From Candidatus Zipacnadia bacterium (GTDB lineage Bacteria > Armatimonadota > Zipacnadia > Zipacnadales > UBA5352): 64,000 nt of DNA. The notes beneath the pieces were generated by a model. That model did not search any database and was not told the DNA's origin. It saw only the letters and a list, made by a program, of their open reading frames with translations. Shown here one piece after another: positions 39,795 through 54,918 of this stretch; position 1 is the stretch's first letter; each line of letters opens with the position of its first letter. A program made the translations under genes and the position numbers. The stretch spans positions 1 to 64,000 of the forward strand of contig JALGUJ010000001.1 in assembly GCA_029820945.1 (NCBI GenBank), given 5' to 3'.

Positions 39795-42700
39795 ATGCGC
39801 CCAATCGCGATCGTCGCCGTCGCGCTGGTAGCCTGCGCGGGCCTCGCGCAGGACGCCGAGGAGACGCCCACGCTCATCCCGGACTGGTGGGCCCGGCAGG
39901 CCGTCGCGACCATCCCACCGGCGCGCCCCGAGCCGCCGACCATCGACGGTCGCGTGGGCTACCGGGAGTGGTTCTACGCCTCCGGCGTTGACGGCTTCAT
40001 CGACGTGGACACGGGTAACCTGCCCGATCTGCCGGTGCGCATGTACGCCTGCTACGACGAGGCCCACGTCTACGTCGCGGTGCGGATCGAGCGCCCGCCG
40101 ATGCATCCCACGCCGCGCTCGACCTTCGAGCCGGGCCGCCACGACCACATCTGGTGGCAGGACGACGCCTTCGAGCTGGTGATCCGGCCCGGGCGCCGCG
40201 AGCGGGGCATCGAGCACTTCTACGCCTTCGTCGGCAACGCCGTCGGGGCGTGGAGCCTGATGCGCGGCGATCTGGAGGGCTCGGGCGGGGACACCTCGGT
40301 GGAGGCGGAGTGGGAGTACGCCGCCGGCCCGGCCGGGCGCACGGCCTGGTCGGGCGAGCTGGCGATCCCGATCGAGCAGCTCAGCGACTGCGAGCCGCCG
40401 CAGCCGGGCTCGGTGTGGCTGATGGACCTGATGGGCCAGCAGGTAACGCCGCGCAAGCGCATGATCGACCTGGGGATGGTCTGGAACAACCGGATGCACG
40501 GCTACCGCTGCCCGGTGACGCCGCGGTTCGTGTTCGTGGGCGAGGACGGCCCGATCCTGCGCCCGCACGGCGTGGGTCGGCTGTCGGCCACGGGCGAGCC
40601 GCCGGTGGAGAACTCGGGGATGCGCATGGTCTTCTACAACCTGGGCGACGAGGCGTTCAGCCTGGACGGGCGCGTCCAGCTCTTCCGCGCGCCCGCCGAC
40701 CACCCCGAGGGCGCGCTGACGCTCTACGACGCCTGGGACCGCGTCAGGCGCATCCGCGAGGGCGGGCGGGACATCGACCCCACGCAGGCCGTGCAGGCCT
40801 TCCGCAGCGAGGAGGACATCCTGCGGGAGCTGAACGAGCGCTTCGAGTTCGTGGGCGAGCGCGAGGGGCGGCTGGTGGTCCGCGCCAGCCCCGCGGAGGG
40901 TGAAGCGGGCAACGCCTACTTCAACCTCGAGCGCCCCGTCGAGAACGGCGAGTACATCGTCGCGTGGGAGTTCACCGACCCTGAGACGGGCGAGGTGGTC
41001 AGCGCGCAGGTCGTGCCCTACGCCATCCTGCCCGGCCTGAAGGTCTCGCTGCGCCCGTTCTTCCTGAAGTACGGGAAGCTGCGCGCGGAGGCGTCGCTGG
41101 CGAACCTGGAGCTGCGCGAGGACGACCGGGTCGAGTTCGCCCTGGAGGTGGGAGGCGAGCGGCTCGCGACGGCGGCGGCTCCGATCGACCCGCAGGCCGA
41201 GTCGGTGCATGTGTTCCTGGACGCGACCGGCATCGAGCCCGGGGCGGAGGCGGCGGTGACCGCGCGGCTGCTGCGCCCCGACGGGGCCGAGGTGATCGCG
41301 AACTCCGCGACGGTGACGCGGCCGCCGGACCCCGAGTGGTGGCCGAATGAGATCGGGCGGTCACAGGTGGTGCCGCCGCCCTTCGAGCCGGTGCGGCCCG
41401 ACGGCGAGCGCGCCGTCACGGTCTGGCAGCGGCGCATCGAGATCGGCGACAACGGCCTGCCGGCGTCGATCGTGGCGCGCGGGACGGAGCTGCTGGCGCG
41501 GCCGGTGACGCTGGACCTGGGCGGGCCGACGCAGTGGACCTGCCGACGCGCGTCCATCGACGAACGCGACGCGGTGTTCGAGGCGACGGGCAGCGCGGGC
41601 CCGCTGGCGCTGTCCATGCGCAGCGTATTCCACTACGACGGGACGGGGCGGTTCGACCTGGAGATCGCGCCGGGCGATGGGGGCGCGACGATTGAGCGGC
41701 TGGTGCTGGAGGTTCCGGTGGTCGAGGATCTCGCACGCCTGGCCTGGCACCAGGGCACGTGGACCGATCCGCAGCGGGCATCCCGCACGACCTTCGCGGG
41801 CAGCGTCGAGGAGTGGTTCGAGCAGTACCCGGAGGGCATGGTGCCCTTCACCTGGGCCTGCTACGTGGGCGCCGAGGACCGGGGGGTGCAGTGGTTCTGC
41901 GAGGCGGACCGCGACTGGTCGAACGCCGACGAGGAGCGCGTGGTGGGGCTGGCGCGCGAGGACGGCGCGGTCGTGCTGGACGTGGCGATGATCGACGAGC
42001 CGCTGGAGATCGCTCAGCCCTGGCGCGCGACATTCGGCCTGACCGTGACGCCGGTGAAGGACGCGGCGCCGGGCCGGCAGATCGTGCGGGTCGCGATGGG
42101 CCGCCCGCCCGGCGTGCAGGAGGACGCGGACCTGGAGGACCTGGCGAAGACCCACCAGGCGATCATCGACGCCGGCGCAAACATGGTCTCGACCTACATC
42201 ACCGACGAGGAGCACTTCGGCTGCCCGCGCATCTACAACCCGCGCTACGAGCAGGCGGCTCGCGAGTACGCGCAGATGCTGCACGGGCTGGGCCTGCGCT
42301 ACACGCCCTACTGCGGCTGGGGCGTGAACGCGAACATCCCCGACTTCTCGACCTTCGGCCAGGAGATGCTCGCGGAGCCCGTCAAGAACATCGGCTGGGG
42401 ATGCTTCCTGCACAACCACGCCGGCACGTTCCCCGACTGGTGGCTGCACGGCGCGAAGCACCTCATCGAGCAGACCGGGCTGGACGGCGTGTACATGGAC
42501 GGGATGGCGATGCCGCGGCTGATGCAGAACGAGCTGGACGGCTACGCGTGGACCGACCGCGAGGGCCGGGGGCGCGGCAGCTACAGCATCTGGGCCATCC
42601 GCGAGTTCATCGAGCGGCTCTACGTCTACACGCACGTCGAGGCGCCCAAGGACGCGATCATCCGCAACCACTACAACCTGGAGACCTTCTGCATCGGCGC

Positions 42701-43331
42701 CTTCACCGATGAGCGCGTGACCGGCGAGGGCCAGTATCACGCGGGCGAGACGGTGCTGGAGGTCAACAGCCCGGCGGAGTTCCGCGCGAACTTCATGACG
42801 CAGGGCAACGGCGTGGCGACCACCGGCCTGTGGTGGAACTGGCTCAAGCTGCCCATCGCGCGCAACGAGATGCGCTCGATGTTCATCATCCACGATGTCC
42901 CGATGGGCGTCGGCGGGGGGATCGTGCGCTACTACGGCCGCCAGATCGGATACGGGCGGAAGACGCGACCGTGGGTGCATCTGCACAGGCTGCGCGCGGC
43001 CTTCGAGGGCGCCGAGTTCATCGGCTACTGGCAGGATGACGTGATCCAGGCGGAGCCGGAGGGTCTGCTCGCCAGCGCGTGGGTGGACCGCGACGGCGGG
43101 CGGGCCCTGGTCGCCATCGCGAACCTGCCGAACGAGCCCTGGAGCGGCACGGTGAGCTTCGACCGCGAGCTGCTCGGGATAGCGGCGGATGCGCAGCCCA
43201 TCGATGCCATGTTCGACGAACCGATCGAGACCGAAGGCGACACGATCTCGCTGGAGATCGAGCCGCAGCGCTATCGGGTGATCATCTTCGGCGACCGCGT
43301 GCCGGTGCCGGAGAACGCGCGAATCGACTGA
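39795..43331 (+). CDS. Exported CBM9-like plus DUF6067-type glycoside hydrolase-like protein
   Basis: 1,178 residues with a signal peptide ending near GLAQDA. Residues about 45-230 resemble a CBM9/DOMON sugar-binding domain (TIDGRVGYREWFYASG, ACYDEAHVYVAVRI). Beta-sandwich regions follow. From about 780 a TIM-barrel-like catalytic region contains MVSTYITDEEHFG, LRYTPYCGWGVNAN and GLDGVYMDGMAMP. The Asp in VYMDG is placed like a catalytic or substrate-binding acid. The order of modules fits DUF6067-type/GH123-like proteins; the reaction is unknown. The ATG at 39795 has GGGGAG about 8 bases upstream. It is divergent from the restriction gene and 13 bases upstream of the C45 peptidase, so the two are co-transcribed. 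Confidence 0.78.
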   Translation: MRPIAIVAVALVACAGLAQDAEETPTLIPDWWARQAVATIPPARPEPPTIDGRVGYREWFYASGVDGFIDVDTGNLPDLPVRMYACYDEAHVYVAVRIERPPMHPTPRSTFEPGRHDHIWWQDDAFELVIRPGRRERGIEHFYAFVGNAVGAWSLMRGDLEGSGGDTSVEAEWEYAAGPAGRTAWSGELAIPIEQLSDCEPPQPGSVWLMDLMGQQVTPRKRMIDLGMVWNNRMHGYRCPVTPRFVFVGEDGPILRPHGVGRLSATGEPPVENSGMRMVFYNLGDEAFSLDGRVQLFRAPADHPEGALTLYDAWDRVRRIREGGRDIDPTQAVQAFRSEEDILRELNERFEFVGEREGRLVVRASPAEGEAGNAYFNLERPVENGEYIVAWEFTDPETGEVVSAQVVPYAILPGLKVSLRPFFLKYGKLRAEASLANLELREDDRVEFALEVGGERLATAAAPIDPQAESVHVFLDATGIEPGAEAAVTARLLRPDGAEVIANSATVTRPPDPEWWPNEIGRSQVVPPPFEPVRPDGERAVTVWQRRIEIGDNGLPASIVARGTELLARPVTLDLGGPTQWTCRRASIDERDAVFEATGSAGPLALSMRSVFHYDGTGRFDLEIAPGDGGATIERLVLEVPVVEDLARLAWHQGTWTDPQRASRTTFAGSVEEWFEQYPEGMVPFTWACYVGAEDRGVQWFCEADRDWSNADEERVVGLAREDGAVVLDVAMIDEPLEIAQPWRATFGLTVTPVKDAAPGRQIVRVAMGRPPGVQEDADLEDLAKTHQAIIDAGANMVSTYITDEEHFGCPRIYNPRYEQAAREYAQMLHGLGLRYTPYCGWGVNANIPDFSTFGQEMLAEPVKNIGWGCFLHNHAGTFPDWWLHGAKHLIEQTGLDGVYMDGMAMPRLMQNELDGYAWTDREGRGRGSYSIWAIREFIERLYVYTHVEAPKDAIIRNHYNLETFCIGAFTDERVTGEGQYHAGETVLEVNSPAEFRANFMTQGNGVATTGLWWNWLKLPIARNEMRSMFIIHDVPMGVGGGIVRYYGRQIGYGRKTRPWVHLHRLRAAFEGAEFIGYWQDDVIQAEPEGLLASAWVDRDGGRALVAIANLPNEPWSGTVSFDRELLGIAADAQPIDAMFDEPIETEGDTISLEIEPQRYRVIIFGDRVPVPENARID

Positions 43332-44384: not shown

Positions 44385-45293
44385 TCAGGCATCCGCCGAG
44401 CCGTGCCGGCGCGCGAAGGCGCCGACCGCATCGTGGTCTTCGCCGCGCGCGATGATCACCAGGCCCGGCCAACCCGCGTCCTGCGCCACTGGCTCGACCG
44501 TCAACTCCGCCTCAGACATGTCGAGGTAGACCAGGCCGCCGGCCGTCGGCACGAAGCCCTTGGCGCGGTAGACCTGGTCGCTGATGCGTCGCAGCTCAGC
44601 CTGCAGGGCTTCGAGGTCCACCGGTCCTCCAAAGGCGACCGAGAAGCGCACGAAGTTGGGGTCAGCGCACAGCGCGTACTCCCCCGCCAATCCCCGCACG
44701 CGCGCGCCCTCGAAGAGTGCCAGGTCCACCTCGCACCGCACCGTGCGCAGGACGGTCACACCGGGGTTGATCTCCCGCACGATCTGTTCGGCGCGATCCA
44801 CCTCCTCCGGGAACAGGTCGATCTTGTTCAGCAGCACGGTGTCCGCAGCCTCGATCTGCGCCCTGATGTTCGGCAGCGTGTGAACCAGCTTGGGCAGGCT
44901 GCCGGGATCGACGACGCTCACGATGGAGGCGAGGTCGTAGACCTCGTCCAGCCTGGTCTCCGCCAGCAGCCGCTCGATGACCCCGGGGTCGGCGATGCCG
45001 CTGGCCTCGATCACCACGCCCACGATGGGGTCGTCCGAGCCGTCGAAGCGCTCCGGGATGCGCTGCAGGTGGCCGACGAACTGTGTGACCAGGCACGTGC
45101 AGAAGATGCTTCCGCCCGGGATGACCACGACTTCCTCCTCAGTCTCGTGCAACAGGGCGCCGTCGATGTCCTCGGGCGAGAACTCGTTGACGAGGTACAC
45201 GATCCGCTCGTCCGGCCGCGTCTCGACGATGTGCTTGAGGAAGGTCGTCTTCCCACTGCCCAGAAAGCCCGTGACCAGGCATATCGGTATCAT
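44385..45293 (-). CDS. G3E-family (CobW/P47K) GTPase, probable metallochaperone
   Basis: 302 residues. The P-loop GFLGSGKTT (9-17), the switch-like VVIEASGIADP and the guanine motif LLNKIDLF identify the G3E family (CobW, HypB, UreG, MeaB, ZNG1). The usual zinc motif G-C-x-C-C is altered: the same place reads GGSIFCTC, leaving two cysteines in a C-T-C arrangement. The CobW C-terminal domain starts near RFSVAFGGPVD. The ATG overlaps the stop of the upstream methyltransferase-thioredoxin gene by 4 bases (ATGA). This tight coupling suggests it delivers a metal or cofactor to that enzyme. Confidence 0.9.
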   Translation of the reverse strand: MIPICLVTGFLGSGKTTFLKHIVETRPDERIVYLVNEFSPEDIDGALLHETEEEVVVIPGGSIFCTCLVTQFVGHLQRIPERFDGSDDPIVGVVIEASGIADPGVIERLLAETRLDEVYDLASIVSVVDPGSLPKLVHTLPNIRAQIEAADTVLLNKIDLFPEEVDRAEQIVREINPGVTVLRTVRCEVDLALFEGARVRGLAGEYALCADPNFVRFSVAFGGPVDLEALQAELRRISDQVYRAKGFVPTAGGLVYLDMSEAELTVEPVAQDAGWPGLVIIARGEDHDAVGAFARRHGSADA

Positions 45294-46669
45294 GGTCCGA
45301 GCTTCTCCTCCAGGCGCCTCCGGATGGCCGTGACGAGCCGGAGCTGGTCGGGGATGATGGACACGAAGGTGGGGACGCCGTCGATGCAGATGGTCGGCAC
45401 ATGTCCCGCGTCGAGGCGGCAGAGCATCCCCAGGCCCTCGCGGCGAGTGATCTTGTGCTCGCGCACCTCGACGCTCCGCCCCAGCTCCTCCGCGGCGCGC
45501 CGCGCGGCGTCCACCATGTACTGGCAGGGCGCACAGGTCGAGGAGTCGAGGGTGATCACGTCCAGGATCACCGTGTCGCCCCCTTCGTAGTCGGGCAGCT
45601 CGATGTCCTCGAAGGCGTCCTCGCGCCTCGTGGTGACAAGCCGGCGGGCGACCTCGCGCTCGTACTCGTCCCGCGCCATCAGGCCCGCGGCCGCGACGTT
45701 CTCAGGCGGGGTATCGAAGGGCAGGTCGCAGCCGGGCGCGAGGATGTAGCCCTCGCCGTCGCCGATGTCAATGCACTCGAGGGCCGCCCGCTTCGCGTCA
45801 TCCTCGCTCCCCAACAGCAGCACGACGGTGAGCTGCAGGTTCCCGCCGAACGACTTGCCGTGCGCGCGGGCGATGTCGCGCAGCAGGGCCAGATCCACGT
45901 TCTCGTCCACCGAGATGCTGTCACAGGCGGTCCGGGCCCTGACCTCCAGGTTCCGCGTGGCGTCGCCGCAGCAGAACAGCGAGGCCGGCCTGCCGCGCTC
46001 GTGGATGTGGTCGAAGAGCGCGTTCGACGGCTCCGCCACGAACTGCTGGAAGTGCTCGGGGGAGATCTGGCTCACCATCGGGTCCACCACGGCGATGACG
46101 TCCGCCCCGTTGTCGATGTATGCGTCGGCCGCCTGCCTGCCCACCTCGGCGCAGAAGGACATCAGCTCCTGCACCCGCGCCGGCGTGTCGAACATCTCCA
46201 GGAAGATGTTGTTGCCCAGCAGGTGCAGGCCGAGGGTGAAGGGCCCGCAGATGAGCCCGTAGATCGCCACGCGCTCCCCGATCTCCGCCTTCGTGGCCCG
46301 CAACGCCTCCATGGTGAGCGGGAAGCGCGCCTCGGCCGTGCTGAACTCGGGCAGGTCAGGCAGCTCGGCGCCCTCGGCCAGCGGATGGCTGCACACGCTC
46401 GGCGGGCCGTCCGGGGCCCAGCGAAGCTCGCAGCCGAGGACCTCGGCCTCCATCTGCAGGTCGAACGTCACCGGCAGCCCATCGGGCCGGTACAGCTCGT
46501 CGGCCGCCAGCAGCCCCTGCGTGATCAGCTCAGCAGACCGCAGGTAGTCGTCGGCGTGGACGCCGATCAGCGCCCCGCCATGGCACCCGACAAAGGGGAC
46601 CCACGCCGGCCGCGTGGTCCTGTGGTTGTGTATCGCCTGCAGAAGTACCTCTTTGCCGCAGATCTCCAT
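45290..46669 (-). CDS. UroD/MtaA-type methyltransferase fused to a thioredoxin-like domain
   Basis: 459 residues. Residues 1-345 form a UroD-fold domain of the MtaA/MtbA (methylcobamide:thiol methyltransferase) type, with LGCELRW, IYGLICGPFTL and YILAPGCDLPFDTPPENV. The zinc site of MtaA is HxC plus a later Cys. Here the later Cys314 is present, but the first pair reads LFCCG (Phe232-Cys233-Cys234), so the His is lost. Residues 362-459 are thioredoxin-like with CAPC (Cys379, Cys382) and a cis-Pro region AGHVPTICIDG. A redox relay to an active-site thiolate is plausible. The start at 46669 has GAGG 6-9 bases upstream; a much longer open frame crosses the divergent gene and is rejected. A CobW-type GTPase follows with a 4-base overlap. 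Confidence 0.85.
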   Translation of the reverse strand: MEICGKEVLLQAIHNHRTTRPAWVPFVGCHGGALIGVHADDYLRSAELITQGLLAADELYRPDGLPVTFDLQMEAEVLGCELRWAPDGPPSVCSHPLAEGAELPDLPEFSTAEARFPLTMEALRATKAEIGERVAIYGLICGPFTLGLHLLGNNIFLEMFDTPARVQELMSFCAEVGRQAADAYIDNGADVIAVVDPMVSQISPEHFQQFVAEPSNALFDHIHERGRPASLFCCGDATRNLEVRARTACDSISVDENVDLALLRDIARAHGKSFGGNLQLTVVLLLGSEDDAKRAALECIDIGDGEGYILAPGCDLPFDTPPENVAAAGLMARDEYEREVARRLVTTRREDAFEDIELPDYEGGDTVILDVITLDSSTCAPCQYMVDAARRAAEELGRSVEVREHKITRREGLGMLCRLDAGHVPTICIDGVPTFVSIIPDQLRLVTAIRRRLEEKLGP

Positions 46670-46882: not shown

Positions 46883-49800
46883 ATGACGCCATCGCCGCCC
46901 CGGATGAGGACCTCGCGACAGAGCCTGTGCACCTCGGTCGCCATCGCGTGCGCCGTCGGCCTGGTCGCCGCAGCGCCGAGCCGGGCCGCGGCGTCGCTTC
47001 CCGTCCTGGACGAGTCCGCCTGGGAGCTGCGCCCCGACTGGATAGGCGAGCCCGATCGGCGGTCGGCGGGCGCCGGATACACCGTGCGCGACGGCATCGC
47101 GCACTTCCGCGTCCCCGAGTCGGGCAGGGCGATGAGCGTGCGCGCGAGCCTGCCGGAGCCGATCGACCTGGACGCTCTGCCCTTCCTGCGCGTGCGCTAC
47201 CGGGCGGTGGGCGTGACGCCCGCGTACGGGCGGCAGTACTTCCTGTGGATGCACAGCTCCGAGACCGGCGGCTCCGCCGTGATCCGGCTCGAGGAGCTGC
47301 TCCTCAACGGCAGGTGGCACACTCAGGTGCTGGAGCCGCACGCCTCGCTGGTGTTCGATGAGGCGGCCCTGCACCTGGCCGTGGGCGCAGACGGGGGCGA
47401 GCTGCAGATCGCCTCGGTCGAGTTTCTGCCCGAGTACCCGCACTTCAGCGTGGCCGACAGCTTCTCCGGTGACCTCGAAGCGCGTGCGGCCATGCCGGAG
47501 TCCGCGCCCGTGCCGATCGATGAGCCGGCCGCCGTCCCTGCACAGGAGGTCCAGGAGACGGTCGGGCTCAGCGACCGGCTCCCGACCGAGACCTTCGCCT
47601 ACGGCGGTGTCCCGTACGAGCCGCCGCCCAACGGACGGGCGGCGCTCATCCCCCGGTATGACGAGGGCGAGCTGGTCGTGCCGTGCGCGGCGACCGCCCG
47701 GGAGATCCACTTCATCATGGCCGCACGGCTCCCCAAGTGGCAGCCGAAGCCCTTCACGCCGTGGGGGGCGATGAAGCGGGCGCTGGCGCAGGTGGAGCGA
47801 CTGAGCGTGTTCCTCGACTACGCGGACGGCACGACCGATCAGGTCTTCCCCTACTGCCCGGACACGAGCAGGTTCGAGCTCTGCCGCGGGCTGAAGGCCT
47901 ACGCCGCTCCGGCCGCGGCGAAGCCGCTGAAGGCCGTGCGCTTCGCCCACGACGCGCGCAACGCCAGGCTGTACCTGTGCGCACTGACCGCGCGCACCGG
48001 CGCGCCGCTGCACGCCGCTGCCTACGCGCCCGACACGCCGCCGGCGGTCGATCCTCCCGAGGTCGCGCCGACCGCGCCTCTCCTCGAACTGGTGAACGAC
48101 CACCTCACCATCGCGAACGCCTACTACGCGCTCCACTTCGATCTGCGACCGACCTTCCGGCTCACCGGGATCGACCGGGCCGGCGTGGCCACCGCGCCCA
48201 CGCTCTTCTCCGCCAGGCGCGGCACTGAACCCTACCGGTCCGACGAGATGACCGTCATCGGCGAGCCGCGGCTCAACGAGACCAGCGTGCACCTGCGGCT
48301 CAGGCCTCCCGACAGCCTTCCGGCCGTGTTCGACCTCACGCTGCAGGCCGACTCCTCTCCCGAGCTGGTCATGGAGCTGAGCGTGACGAACGAGGGCCGC
48401 CAGCCGCTGGGGCTCGAGGTGGTGTTCCCGCACCTGCGCCGGCTGCGCGTGGGCGATCTCGCGGACACGTGGTACTTCTACCCGTCGCACTGCGCGCGGC
48501 TGACCCGGGGCATCTCCGCAAACCGCCGGGCCTACGGCGGGCGCTTCCCCCTGCAGTTCTTCTCGGTCTTCAACCCGCGGCTGGGCCGGGGCGTGTACGT
48601 CGCCACCCGCGACCGGACCGGGGTGGACCGGCACTACGAGCTTGCCAAGCGGTTTGACGGCGTGGAGGCGCGAATCCGGTACCCCGACAGCCTGGTGATC
48701 GCGCCCGGCGGCACGCTGGAGCTGCCCGAGACCGTCCTGGCGCTGCACCCCGGCGACTGGCACCAGGCCCTCGCGGCCTATCGGGAGTGGGCGAGGCCGT
48801 GGTATCTCGAGGGCAATGTGCGGCCGGAGTGGTTCAGGCGCGTCACCAACATGCGCACCTTCAACCTGCAGGACCCGGGCAAGAACCACCGGCAGGTCCG
48901 TGACCCCGAGACCGGCCGGTACCGGGTAGACGAGGTGCTCGACGAAGAGGAGCGGCGCTTCGGGCGTGTGGACTACGCGCACTTCTTCGACTACCGCGTC
49001 TCCGAGCAGTTCGGACGATGGGGCGACTACGACGAGTTCTCAGCGATCGGCGGCGCGGAGGGCTTCAGCCGCTGCCTGCGGCAGTTCGAGGCCCGCGGTT
49101 GCCGCCTGGGCCTCTACATGGAGGGCTTCCTGGCCTCGGGCACCTCGAAGGTGGCGCAGGAACACGCCGAGCAGTGGCGCATCGAGAGGCGCGGCGGCGG
49201 GTTCCTGAGCAAGCACTCGACGCCCGGTGAGCCCGTCTACGGCATGTGCCCGTTCATGCCGGGATGGCGCCGGCATCTCGCCGATACCGCCGCGCGGCTG
49301 GTGCGGCAGTTCGACGTGGACGGGATCTACCTCGACGAGTTCGGCTTCAATAGCTCCGGCTACTACTGCTACCGCGAGGATCACCCGCATCCGGTGCCGG
49401 GAAGGCCGCTGCAGGGGGTGATGGCCACGCTTCGCGAGGTTAAGGAGTCGCTGCCCGACGACATCGCGCTGTACACCGAGGAGTGCCCGGCCGATGTCGC
49501 GAGCCAGCACGCCGACGGATCCTTCTCCTACTTCCTGAGCTACAACGACCCGCCGCACACGCCGGGGCGGCTCAGCGCGTATCGGTTCGCGTTTCCCGAG
49601 TTCCGGCTGCTGGCGCTGTCCGCGCAGACCATCGCCGCCGGCGACTACATCGACCAGCCCAAGTTCGTTCTCTTCAACGGGCTCGGGTACTACGGCTCGG
49701 GCATCATCATCGTGGATCAGGCCGAGCGCAGCTATCGGGAGACCATCCGGGTGCTGCAGGAGCATCGCGAGGCCTTCAACTCGCTTGAGGCCGAGCCACT

Positions 49801-50044
49801 GATACCGACGGAGACGCCGGGCATCCTGGCGAACCGCTTCCCGGGCCCGAGCGAGACCGTCTACACCGTCTTCAACACCATGTATCACACGGTGCGGTGC
49901 CCCGTCGTGCGCATCGCCGAGCACCAGCAGTGCCGGCTGCTCTACGGGTCGGAGGAGATGTCGGTTCAACGGCGCGAAGGCGCCGCGGTCGTGCACCTGA
50001 CCCTGGGCCCGCGCGCCGTCGCCTGCTTCTGCTGCCCGCGGTAG
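46883..50044 (+). CDS. Exported glycoside hydrolase-like protein (DUF6259-like)
   Basis: 1,053 residues from the ATG chosen. Signal peptide: CTSVAIACAVGLVAAAP, then a signal-peptidase site near SRAAAS. The N-terminal half is beta-rich. The centre has QFFSVFNPRLGRGVYVATRDRTG, and the C-terminal half is TIM-barrel-like with HFFDYR, GLYMEGFLASG and DGIYLDEFGFNSSG; the Glu in LDEFG may be catalytic. The pattern recalls DUF6259 proteins common in Hydrogenedentota and Armatimonadota; the substrate is unknown. The start is uncertain: GTG at 46814, or ATGs at 46883 and 46904, with only a weak GGGAAG before 46883. An amidohydrolase gene follows 63 bases downstream. Confidence 0.7.
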   Translation: MTPSPPRMRTSRQSLCTSVAIACAVGLVAAAPSRAAASLPVLDESAWELRPDWIGEPDRRSAGAGYTVRDGIAHFRVPESGRAMSVRASLPEPIDLDALPFLRVRYRAVGVTPAYGRQYFLWMHSSETGGSAVIRLEELLLNGRWHTQVLEPHASLVFDEAALHLAVGADGGELQIASVEFLPEYPHFSVADSFSGDLEARAAMPESAPVPIDEPAAVPAQEVQETVGLSDRLPTETFAYGGVPYEPPPNGRAALIPRYDEGELVVPCAATAREIHFIMAARLPKWQPKPFTPWGAMKRALAQVERLSVFLDYADGTTDQVFPYCPDTSRFELCRGLKAYAAPAAAKPLKAVRFAHDARNARLYLCALTARTGAPLHAAAYAPDTPPAVDPPEVAPTAPLLELVNDHLTIANAYYALHFDLRPTFRLTGIDRAGVATAPTLFSARRGTEPYRSDEMTVIGEPRLNETSVHLRLRPPDSLPAVFDLTLQADSSPELVMELSVTNEGRQPLGLEVVFPHLRRLRVGDLADTWYFYPSHCARLTRGISANRRAYGGRFPLQFFSVFNPRLGRGVYVATRDRTGVDRHYELAKRFDGVEARIRYPDSLVIAPGGTLELPETVLALHPGDWHQALAAYREWARPWYLEGNVRPEWFRRVTNMRTFNLQDPGKNHRQVRDPETGRYRVDEVLDEEERRFGRVDYAHFFDYRVSEQFGRWGDYDEFSAIGGAEGFSRCLRQFEARGCRLGLYMEGFLASGTSKVAQEHAEQWRIERRGGGFLSKHSTPGEPVYGMCPFMPGWRRHLADTAARLVRQFDVDGIYLDEFGFNSSGYYCYREDHPHPVPGRPLQGVMATLREVKESLPDDIALYTEECPADVASQHADGSFSYFLSYNDPPHTPGRLSAYRFAFPEFRLLALSAQTIAAGDYIDQPKFVLFNGLGYYGSGIIIVDQAERSYRETIRVLQEHREAFNSLEAEPLIPTETPGILANRFPGPSETVYTVFNTMYHTVRCPVVRIAEHQQCRLLYGSEEMSVQRREGAAVVHLTLGPRAVACFCCPR

Positions 50045-51431: not shown

Positions 51432-54400
51432 TCAGTGAGGCCCGGCATCCCCCGCCCGCAGCAGGCGCACGCAGTGCGGGATGGCGGTCACGGTCAGGCC
51501 GTCGGCAAGCTGCGCGACGGTGCCAAGCCTCTCGCCCGTGGCCACGTCGATGACCGGCATTGGCGCCAGGATCGGCAGTTCGAGGATCACCGGATCGCAG
51601 CGCACGGTCGCCTCGACCGCCTCGTCGCCCGTGGACAGCAGAGCGATGGTGCGCGCGTCCGGATAGGCGTACACGAACAGGTCGTCGCCGCCGGTGACGT
51701 CGAGGCGTCCGGCCTCACCCTCGCGCCCCGCAGCCCAGAAGATGGCGGACCGCACCAGGCGCGAGAAGGCGTACTCATCCGACCGGCCGGCGATCCAGGC
51801 CGCGCGACCCTCGCCCACCTCGCGGACGGTCATGCCGGGGGAGACGGTCTCGCCGTCCACCAGCGCGCAGGCGACCCTGACGTCCTCGGCGACGGGCCGC
51901 GCGCCGACGGTCTCGACCATGCCCGGAATCGTCGGGGGGATCTCGACCGCCTGCACCCCGGCGGCCCTGACCAGCGCCGCGCCCTCCTCCTCGCGCGCGG
52001 CGGCCAATGCATCCTCGTCAAGCCACTCGTCGCCGGAGTACGCCGCGCCGGCCTCCGCGACCTCGGTCGCGCCGGTGCCGTCCACGCCGAAGACGTCGGC
52101 CAGTGCCCAGCCGTCATCCAGCGCCGAGGGCCCCTGCAGGCCGACCACGCCGCCGCCCGCGCGCACGAACTCGCGCACGGCATCGGCCAGGCGGGCATCC
52201 TCCCAGATGTACCCGCCGCTCCAGGCGCTGCCGGGCATTCCGTAGAGGAACAGGCAGTGCGCGTCGTCGGGCACGCCCGCCTCGATGACCTCGCGGAAGC
52301 CGATGAAGCGCACGCGCACGGGCAGGTCGGTCAGGTGCCGGAGCCGGTGGTCGTGCCACGGCCGCCAGGAGTACTGCCTGCCCCACGAGTGCACGACGTA
52401 GAGGTTCAGCGCGCCCTCCCACGCGCGCACGCCGCCGAGCTCGCCGGCCATGAGTCGGAACTCGTCGCTGATCTGCGCGATCTCCTCGACCATGTCGTCG
52501 CGCATGGCCTCATCGGAGAGGTCGGTGACGCCGGGCATGGGCATCCAGTACAGGCCCATGGGCGGCTGCATCAGCAGGCCGCGGCGCGTGCGGCCCCACT
52601 GGGTGCCGAACAGCGCCGCACCGTCCGGCCGGGCGACGAGGTGGCTGTGCAGCCAGTTCACGCGCAGGCGGCGGTAGACCTCGCCGGGGAAGTCCACGAG
52701 CGCCCGCGCCGTCACCGGATCCGCGGCGGGCTTGTCCACCTCATCCACGTTCCCGGCCTCGAGGCTGCCCAGGTACGGCTCGATCCCGACGTGGCAGTCG
52801 CCCCAGTAGAGCCAGGTGCGCGCGCCGTGCTCGTGCACCACGTCGGTGGCACGGCGCATGAAGCCCCTGACGCCCTCCTGCACCCACGCCATCCATGCCA
52901 GGTACTGTGGCCGCGGCGGCACGTCCAGCGTGCGTGGCGGCATGACCAGCCAGCGCGGATCGAACTCGATGCCGGTGGCCTCGGTGAAGGCGCGCTGGTT
53001 CTCGGGCCGTGCCGCGTTGGTGTAGGACTCCCAGTCGTAGCCGCCCTGCGGATTGCCGCCCGGCCAGGCGTAGGCCAGGTCGTCGTACCAGAAGGTCTCC
53101 AGCACGCCCTCCAGCGGCGCGACCTCCTCGCGAAGCGCGCTCAGAGCGTGCTCGACGAAGGGCTCGTGGAGCGGATCGCCGATGCGCGCCGTCTGGTTCA
53201 TGTAGTAGACCCTGAAGGTGCGGCCGTCCTCGGCGCCGCGGATGGTGATCCGCTTCGAGCCCGGGTCGTACTCCCAGCTCTCGGCGGGCACCTCCTCGTC
53301 CGTCTCAAGGTCGAGGACCAGCCAGTGCTCGGCGGGCGGGAAGAAGTCGCTGACCGCCAGGCTGCCCCACGCCGGAGCCTCGAGCCTCATCTCCACCGTC
53401 CCCACCTCGGCGGGCGGCGTGTCCATGTACCAGTAGCCGAACTGCAGGTGGTCGGGGCTCCCGGAGTCCGCGGTGTGGATGGGCGCGGAGGAAAGCATTG
53501 CCGTGTGGTAGCCGGCGTCCCGCCAGGCCGCGAGGCCCTCCCGAGTGGCGCTGCCGTGCGGCGAGACCAGCTCGTTGGCGCCGATGCGCTCGGCCCACGG
53601 GAAGGCCTCCGCCGCGCGCTCGTTGCCGTGCCAGCTCATCGTGATGCGCAGCTCGTCGTTGTCCGCCTCGCGCACTGCCCGGCGCATCGCGCGGCGGTAC
53701 TCGGCCTCACCGCTCGCGATAGCCGCGACGCGCCGCTCGGCGGCCGTGAGGTAGTTCGAGGCGGCGCTGAGACGGCGCCGCTCCATGGCATCCTGCGCCG
53801 CGGCCAGCAGGCCCGCCGCGACCCGCCGCTCGGCAAGCTCCGTGTCGGCGGCCTCAATCGCCTCTCCCACGGCCTCACTGCGTAGCCTCAGCTCAGACAT
53901 CGCCGCACCTCCGTAGCCCACCGGACGCGTGATGCTCGCGATCTCCGCGCCGCCCGCGTCCACGAAGGTCACCGTCACGCGGCCCTCGCCATCTCCGATG
54001 CGCTCCGCGGGCATGAGGGGCCGGGAGGCCTCGGCCACGGGCAGCTCGCGGCTCAGCGCCTCCTCGCCCGCGCTGTCCGTGATCTGCACCCGCAGACCAG
54101 AGACCGCGGTGGGCAGCGCGACATCGTCGAGGTTCAGCCGCACCTGCTCGCCCGGGAGGTAGGTGCGCTGCGTCATCAGCGGCGCGAAGCTCCGCACGCC
54201 GCGGGAGATGCGGACCTCGTCGATGGCGCCGCGCAGGTGATCGCGCCAACTGTCGTGGGAGCCGAAAACAGTGTTGCCGGGCTTCTCGGTGTAGGTGCCC
54301 TCATCGGCGTGTTGCGTCTCGCCCGCCAGGCGGCCGTTGATGTAAAGCCGCGCGGTCCGGTCGGCGTCGTGGGTCAGCGCGACGTGCTGCCATTCGCCGC

Positions 54401-54860
54401 GCCGCCACGGGATGCCCGCGAGGGAGTACCAGCGGATGGGGAAGGTCTCGGCGCGGTAGCCGAAGGTGGCCGTCCCTCGCGCGTAGTGGGCGGTGAGGTA
54501 GTAGTTGATGGCGACCGAGAAGATGTTCCCCTCGGGGCCATCCGGCCGCAGCCACATCTCGACCGTGAACGGCTGGTCCACGGCGAGCCGCAGCATCTCG
54601 TGGCTGGGCAGGCGCACGCACTGCCCGCGACCGTCGAGGCCCGCGGCCCGGCCGAAGACGCCCGGGACCGACGGCGCGTCCTTGCGCATCTCCGCCGTGA
54701 CCCCGAGCACGCCCTCGACCGGCTGGGGGCCGTCATCCTCGTCGAGGTGCAGCAGCACGAGTGTCTGCTCGTCCGGCTCGTAGGGCAGGAACCAGGCCTC
54801 GGCGGCGTGCACGGGAAGCGTGGCCAGCGTGCAGAGGGCGGTGATCGCGACGCGTGTCAT
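51432..54860 (-). CDS. Exported LamG plus GH112-like (galactosyl-N-acetylhexosamine phosphorylase-like) protein
   Basis: 1,142 residues with a signal peptide (ALCTLATLPVHAAEA). Residues about 35-230 are a LamG/concanavalin-like jelly roll (VEMWLRPDG, WQHVALTHD, AIDEVRISRG). A beta and coiled region follows (about 330-390 helical). The C-terminal 750 residues resemble GH112 lacto-N-biose phosphorylases: ETFWYDDL, LYWGDCHVGIEPYLGS, VHSWGRQYSW and MPGSAWSGGYIW. GDxxxGxEPY and the GSAWSGG loop are characteristic as I recall the family. GH112 enzymes are normally cytoplasmic phosphorylases, so an exported form with LamG is odd. The ATG at 54860 follows GGAGGGAGAG. A GH20-like gene lies just upstream, on the same strand. 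Confidence 0.75.
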   Translation of the reverse strand: MTRVAITALCTLATLPVHAAEAWFLPYEPDEQTLVLLHLDEDDGPQPVEGVLGVTAEMRKDAPSVPGVFGRAAGLDGRGQCVRLPSHEMLRLAVDQPFTVEMWLRPDGPEGNIFSVAINYYLTAHYARGTATFGYRAETFPIRWYSLAGIPWRRGEWQHVALTHDADRTARLYINGRLAGETQHADEGTYTEKPGNTVFGSHDSWRDHLRGAIDEVRISRGVRSFAPLMTQRTYLPGEQVRLNLDDVALPTAVSGLRVQITDSAGEEALSRELPVAEASRPLMPAERIGDGEGRVTVTFVDAGGAEIASITRPVGYGGAAMSELRLRSEAVGEAIEAADTELAERRVAAGLLAAAQDAMERRRLSAASNYLTAAERRVAAIASGEAEYRRAMRRAVREADNDELRITMSWHGNERAAEAFPWAERIGANELVSPHGSATREGLAAWRDAGYHTAMLSSAPIHTADSGSPDHLQFGYWYMDTPPAEVGTVEMRLEAPAWGSLAVSDFFPPAEHWLVLDLETDEEVPAESWEYDPGSKRITIRGAEDGRTFRVYYMNQTARIGDPLHEPFVEHALSALREEVAPLEGVLETFWYDDLAYAWPGGNPQGGYDWESYTNAARPENQRAFTEATGIEFDPRWLVMPPRTLDVPPRPQYLAWMAWVQEGVRGFMRRATDVVHEHGARTWLYWGDCHVGIEPYLGSLEAGNVDEVDKPAADPVTARALVDFPGEVYRRLRVNWLHSHLVARPDGAALFGTQWGRTRRGLLMQPPMGLYWMPMPGVTDLSDEAMRDDMVEEIAQISDEFRLMAGELGGVRAWEGALNLYVVHSWGRQYSWRPWHDHRLRHLTDLPVRVRFIGFREVIEAGVPDDAHCLFLYGMPGSAWSGGYIWEDARLADAVREFVRAGGGVVGLQGPSALDDGWALADVFGVDGTGATEVAEAGAAYSGDEWLDEDALAAAREEEGAALVRAAGVQAVEIPPTIPGMVETVGARPVAEDVRVACALVDGETVSPGMTVREVGEGRAAWIAGRSDEYAFSRLVRSAIFWAAGREGEAGRLDVTGGDDLFVYAYPDARTIALLSTGDEAVEATVRCDPVILELPILAPMPVIDVATGERLGTVAQLADGLTVTAIPHCVRLLRAGDAGPH

Positions 54861-54918
54861 GCTGATCTCTCCCTCCGACGTCATCGCAGCTCGGGGCCCT
54901 GGCGGCGGCGAGACCGCC

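Follow-up and report, generated by a model that had tools for sequence, protein, structure and literature searches.

Methylcobamide:coenzyme M methyltransferases of the MtaA and MtbA type (TIGR01463, NF040654, NF041608; PDB 4ay7) are UroD-fold barrels that carry the HxC...C zinc-ligand pattern of the MtaA/CmuA family. Three-component O-demethylase and methanol methyltransferase systems combine an MT1, a corrinoid protein, an MT2 and the activator RACo. Bacterial MtaA-like methyltransferases, probably linked to sulfur or selenium, are also found in the type 1 mlp clusters of Kountz and Balskus (PMC10418091), where they keep His-Cys-Cys almost invariably; in that work sites with carboxylates where others have Cys are associated with oxygen, and His-Cys-Cys sites with sulfur or selenium, and there is no mention of CobW or other GTPases or of a thioredoxin fusion. 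As for the GTPases, the COG0523/CobW G3E proteins (YjiA, CobW, ZNG1) have in common a P-loop, an NKxD motif and a CobW_C domain, and the CxCC metal motif is present in all COG0523 members (PMC2770081). Subfamily 13 of COG0523 (Haas 2009) co-localises with mtaA/mtaB/mtaC in methanogens, and a COG0523 GTPase beside a corrinoid methyltransferase has therefore been on record since 2009 (PMC2770081).

The window, the whole stretch of 64,000 nucleotides that was analysed, holds a gene pair akin to these proteins (Table 1): a UroD/MtaA-fold methyltransferase fused to a thioredoxin domain, here called UroD-Trx, and a COG0523-type GTPase. By analogy, the pair would act as an MT2 of the MtaA type assisted by a COG0523 protein, yet it departs from MtaA in the zinc triad and the family score, and from COG0523 in the CxCC motif. 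UroD-Trx shares with MtaA/MtbA the barrel and both zinc cysteines; it differs in having Phe for the zinc His, an extra invariant His30 and a fused CAPC thioredoxin, in scoring far under the family cut-offs, and in being found here in bacteria. The GTPase resembles subfamily 13 in lying next to an MtaA-like/corrinoid methyltransferase gene. All component types of the three-component systems occur in the genome or in related clusters, although the putative MT2 is here MtaA-like with a thioredoxin rather than a methyl-THF enzyme, the candidate MT1s are of the UroD fold, and the context is one of sugars. Our literature search, which was incomplete and is no proof of novelty, turned up no account of the thioredoxin fusion, of the His-to-Phe change or of the GSxFCxC class, and nothing relevant on anaerobic corrinoid demethylation of sugars.

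Table 1. Features of the gene pair, with positions in the window.
Feature	Position	Strand	Basis or remark
UroD/MtaA-fold methyltransferase with C-terminal thioredoxin domain (UroD-Trx)	45290..46669	-	459 aa
URO-D barrel domain, residues 9-327	45689..46645	-	Pfam PF01208; AF2 model nearest MtaA 4ay7, TM 0.89 over target
His30, directly after barrel strand 1; candidate substitute metal ligand	46580..46582	-	56/56 homologues
FCCG (F232-C233-C234-G235), in place of MtaA HxCG	45965..45976	-	HMMER alignment to MtaA
Cys314 of APGCD, second conserved zinc Cys	45728..45730	-	60/60 homologues
Thioredoxin-fold domain, residues ~367-457	45299..45571	-	AF2 secondary structure; profile match to 1nho, 1fo5
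CAPC redox motif, C379-C382	45524..45535	-	cis-Pro position P425 likewise conserved
COG0523/CobW-type G3E GTPase	44385..45293	-	302 aa; start codon overlaps UroD-Trx stop
P-loop GFLGSGKT of GTPase	45246..45269	-
GSIFCTC, residues 61-67 of GTPase, in place of GCxCC	45093..45113	-	alignment to YjiA

Architecture of the gene pair

The frames, coordinates and strand of both genes are as the earlier note gave them, including the 4-base ATGA overlap that joins the 3' end of UroD-Trx to the start of the GTPase. We regard them as the true coding frames because their ribosome-binding sites are good (GCGAGG, and GGAGGAG, which sits within the upstream gene) and their GC3 of 0.90-0.94 exceeds the 0.71-0.76 of the competing plus-strand ORFs. 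No cobalamin riboswitch or other Rfam RNA was found in the 64-kb window.

The barrel of UroD-Trx scores 192.9 bits against URO-D (PF01208), for which the gathering threshold is 23.9. The AF2 model, made from 37 sequences and confident throughout (pLDDT 92.5, pTM 0.90), consists of a barrel and a thioredoxin fold. Together with the ATGA overlap, these results bear out the previously described fusion coupled to a GTPase gene. The solved structures nearest to the model are MtaA 4ay7 and 4ay8 (TM 0.87-0.89 over the target, 26% identity), which rank ahead of the uroporphyrinogen decarboxylases. UroD-Trx nevertheless stays below the curated cut-off of MtaA/CmuA (TIGR01463; 145.1 versus 235.4 bits), as it does for the HemE uroporphyrinogen decarboxylases (TIGR01464; 69.4 versus 302.95 bits). 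PF01717, the core of MetE and of the Mes folate-independent methionine synthases, is not among its Pfam matches and was not found elsewhere in the genome.

The thioredoxin domain of the window protein has only sub-cut-off NCBIfam and Pfam matches; for Thioredoxin_3 (PF13192; cut-off 24.8) it reaches 16.0 bits, whereas a homologue (L017) reaches 32.1. Its CxxC and cis-Pro signature is conserved among the homologues, with C379, P381 and C382 kept in 60/60 and P425 in 59/59. A link to selenoproteins (CobW-related selenoprotein NF041053, HUIPC thioredoxin NF047660) was considered and rejected: the matches are weak and sub-cut-off, and there is no sequence reason for Sec. As a separate observation, planctomycete-type UroD-Trx proteins (L017:1543-3168, L014, L015, L022 and others) extend for about 85 residues beyond the active thioredoxin, and by eye this extension resembles a cysteine-free second Thioredoxin_3-like domain, Pfam reporting one stretch only.

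Altered metal motifs in both partners

In the HMMER alignment to MtaA 4ay7, Phe232 falls on the zinc His, and Cys234 and Cys314 fall on the zinc Cys positions, in agreement with the earlier note, which had the zinc His lost in FCCG and Cys314 kept. The change from His to Phe is found in 59/59 sequences, with both Cys retained; motif counts refer to 60 non-identical UroD-Trx homologues, some of them partial, with denominators of 56-60. F232, C234, C314, CAPC and H30 are invariant among homologues from several phyla, which rules out Phe232 as a private mutation. The peptides with which the genomes were scanned were short and one lay within the CAPC region, so the conservation of CAPC is partly built in; F232, H30 and C314 lie outside every scan peptide, and a whole-genome search of the phylum with full-length UroD-Trx gave the same motif result. 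The conserved part of FCCG is F232, C234 and G235, while position 233 varies (Cys in 8/59, Val in 51/59); the presence of a second Cys in the motif is clade-specific.

The position of His30 is Gly in MtaA. In the AF2 model His30 follows the first barrel strand and Cys314 the last, and these two strands are adjacent in the URO-D fold. Given that the two residues follow neighbouring strands, and that MtaA has Gly where His30 stands, we think that His30 may serve in place of the missing zinc His as a candidate ligand. Where a different metal or a redox-regulated thiolate had been suggested, the motifs could instead describe an ordinary zinc site with His30 replacing the lost His.

The partner protein is a COG0523/CobW GTPase by its domains (cobW 116.8 bits, CobW_C 28.7 bits, both over cut-off), P-loop and NKxD motif. 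The alignment to YjiA places S62-I-F-C-T-C67 on the GCICC stretch, with GSIFC aligned and T-C following; SIFCTC thus stands where G3E proteins have GCxCC, as had been noticed before. Among 55 partner GTPases the motif reads SxFCxC in 54 and SxYCxC in one; S62, C65 and C67 are invariant and F64 near-invariant at a median identity of ~27%. The residue before NEF, Glu37 in YjiA (ENEF), is V, I, Q or L. Metal binding by this GTPase appears doubtful, since two of the three CxCC cysteines and the position of YjiA Glu37 are changed.

The loss of the zinc His and of two CxCC cysteines might be read as decay, with both proteins degenerate, the methyltransferase metal-free, and the pair retained for regulation or as a scaffold. 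We hold this to be very improbable: C234, C314, H30, CAPC and GSxFCxC do not vary even among widely diverged sequences, and the GTPase has kept an intact P-loop and NKxD.

In phylum genomes lacking UroD-Trx (L124-L130), the full-length CobW proteins inspected read GCICC, GCVCC, GCACC or GCLCC. The sole apparent exception, L123, has a GSL motif, but the end of its contig also holds the last part of a UroD-Trx. Two of the canonical proteins, G189:C164 (L129) and G244:C142 (L125), read GGCVCC, and the L129 gene, by eye, adjoins genes resembling those of CODH and of the CooC ATPase, perhaps a further COG0523 group with its own client.

Linkage, co-inheritance and corrinoid partners

The GTPase gene lies directly downstream of UroD-Trx in 44 of the 50 informative loci (those with room for it), often with the same 4-base overlap, and the pairwise distances of the two proteins correlate (r=0.88, above all 2000 permutations). 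Across the 60 homologues a loose pairing is thereby ruled out. The exceptions are two Hydrogenedentes and four planctomycete-type loci, where an FxCG UroD-Trx has no adjacent GSxFCxC GTPase, and lineage f40 (L131, L132, L141), with no such GTPase nearby. Given these loci and the canonical CobW proteins of genomes without UroD-Trx, the dependence seems to be one-way: the GSxFCxC GTPase appears to require UroD-Trx, while UroD-Trx has no strict need of a linked GTPase. The two refutations named in the earlier note, a private Phe232 and genes that are not co-conserved, thus fail: the fusion, the gene coupling, FxCG and GSxFCxC are fixed and inherited together in several phyla. Lineage f40 and the six further loci do speak against strict interdependence of the two motifs.

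No B12-binding domain is encoded on the window's contig. The earlier remark that the window lacks a corrinoid protein is true but misleading, for the same genome has one on another contig (C82), directly beside RACo, and so combines these two parts of a three-component corrinoid methyltransferase system. The corrinoid protein adjoins UroD-Trx in about 21 related loci; in Bacteroidales, the corrinoid protein, a Met_synt_B12-like protein and RACo form one gene run with UroD-Trx, and in sister genomes a PocR-AraC regulator lies opposite the corrinoid protein/UroD-Trx locus. RACo is present in 14/14 genomes with UroD-Trx versus 153/291 in the phylum sample, whose MAGs are incomplete (p ~1e-4 before correction for relatedness); the support at genus level is modest (p ~0.008).

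The own genome has one UroD-Trx, one partner GTPase and eight other UroDs, none with the FxCG/CAPC combination. The UroD paralogues beside UroD-Trx vary between loci; most combine either HSCG or DxDG with a His further on, and all lack the thioredoxin, while UroD-Trx is constant across the clusters. These neighbours bear on whether UroD-Trx could itself be the MT1. It would then remove the methyl from sulfur or selenium in its substrate, its thioredoxin would reduce or capture the thiol that is formed, and the UroDs next to it would be unrelated or alternative MT1s. Soft S or Se substrates are a good match for a Cys-rich site (PMC10418091), and in many loci the nearest genes are the corrinoid protein, UroD-Trx and the GTPase alone. 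Nevertheless, with MtaA, the closest characterised relative, being an MT2, and with different UroD paralogues added around a constant UroD-Trx, we consider it rather unlikely.

A route to methionine, in which a homocysteine S-methyltransferase encoded nearby would put the corrinoid methyl on homocysteine and UroD-Trx would be a donor or partner, had looked strong as the main story from gaps in MetF, MetE and MetH-type pterin genes: none of MetE, MetF (MTHFR) or a MetH-type (second) pterin-binding domain was found in the own MAG. A PF02574 homocysteine S-methyltransferase gene also lies directly downstream in two other lineages (L131 and L007/L048-type loci), and in the own genome a tandem pair of such genes lies close to a UroD paralogue and a ThyX-like gene (G000:C128:59218-60976, L090). 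However, MTHFR is present in 6/8 sister genomes that carry UroD-Trx, which makes the gap in the own MAG uninformative and led us to demote this route; as most clusters also lack such a gene, it is quite improbable.

A proposed corrinoid-dependent demethylation system

We give about an even chance to the proposition that the pair is the common end, an MT2 with its dedicated maturation GTPase, of an anaerobic corrinoid-dependent demethylation system. The methyl groups, whose source is probably O-methylated sugars or comparable methoxy compounds, would be loaded onto a small stand-alone corrinoid protein by substrate-specific MT1s of the UroD fold, for which the genome has several candidates; RACo would reactivate the corrinoid. 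UroD-Trx would come next as the MtaA-like MT2: at a metal site built from Cys234, Cys314 and probably His30, it would hand the methyl of the corrinoid on to an acceptor that is a thiol or another sulfur species. Its thioredoxin domain would supply the acceptor or site thiol or keep it reduced, and the GTPase would act as a dedicated maturation factor that inserts the metal.

The MT2 role is suggested by MtaA, itself an MT2, being nearest among solved structures in both sequence and fold, and by the invariance of both Cys ligands where the His alone is changed. Given that the neighbouring UroDs vary while UroD-Trx is constant, variable MT1s with one common thiol-side MT2 would be the simplest division of labour. 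The clustering of the corrinoid protein, the Met_synt_B12-like protein and RACo, together with the occurrence of RACo in every UroD-Trx genome, points to a demethylation system. Counting against the proposition, the own-genome pair is not adjacent to the corrinoid protein; it is further weakened by the loci without an adjacent GTPase, the doubtful metal binding of the GTPase, and a sugar context that is clearest in Bacteroidales, whose UroD-Trx enzymes are ~46% identical to the window protein. A bolder version, in which the CAPC thiol (or a bound sulfide or persulfide) is a protein-borne replacement for coenzyme M that accepts the methyl at a rebuilt Cys234/Cys314/His30 site with metal from the SxFCxC GTPase, seems to us decidedly unlikely; we know of no other UroD-fold methyltransferase with a built-in methyl acceptor.

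A sugar substrate is suggested by the sugar genes around the clusters and by a P450 gene set in Labilibacter sediminis (L049). The surroundings in Bacteroidales, where isolates of Labilibacter, Carboxylicivirga and Saccharicrinis are among the carriers of the cluster, include galactokinase, RhaT, alpha-L-fucosidase, GH2, GH26, sulfatase, KDPG aldolase and an MFS sugar transporter. In L049 (11122-13338), genes for a P450, a 2Fe-2S ferredoxin and a pyridine-nucleotide reductase lie directly downstream of the UroD-Trx/RACo cluster. The P450 matches PDB 6g5o/6g5q (1.1e-190), titled in the PDB only as 'Cytochrome P450', of which we take 6g5o to be the Zobellia 6-O-methyl-D-galactose demethylase. 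A three-gene oxidative system for 6-O-methyl-galactose demethylation has been described (PMC10033563). This placing of an oxygen-dependent beside a putatively oxygen-independent demethylation system is the best clue to methylated sugars. In the window itself, large proteins with GH123_N, DUF6259, lacto-N-biose phosphorylase and LamG domains (39795-43328, 46883-50041, 51435-54884) make up a neighbourhood of polysaccharide or glycan degradation, which fits a sugar substrate and is no proof of it.

Taken together, the motif changes shared across phyla point to an unstudied methyl-stripping route, whose methyl source is probably O-methylated plant and algal sugars used without oxygen. Polysaccharides of algae and plants commonly contain O-methylated sugars. 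The known demethylation of 6-O-methyl-galactose is by a P450 and requires oxygen, and a corrinoid route, if true, would fill a gap in anaerobic carbon cycling. If the corrinoid system indeed lies beside sugar genes in culturable Bacteroidales, these organisms may tell the fate of the methyl group. The paired motif changes also offer a clean natural experiment on the fit between a COG0523 GTPase and the metal site of its client.
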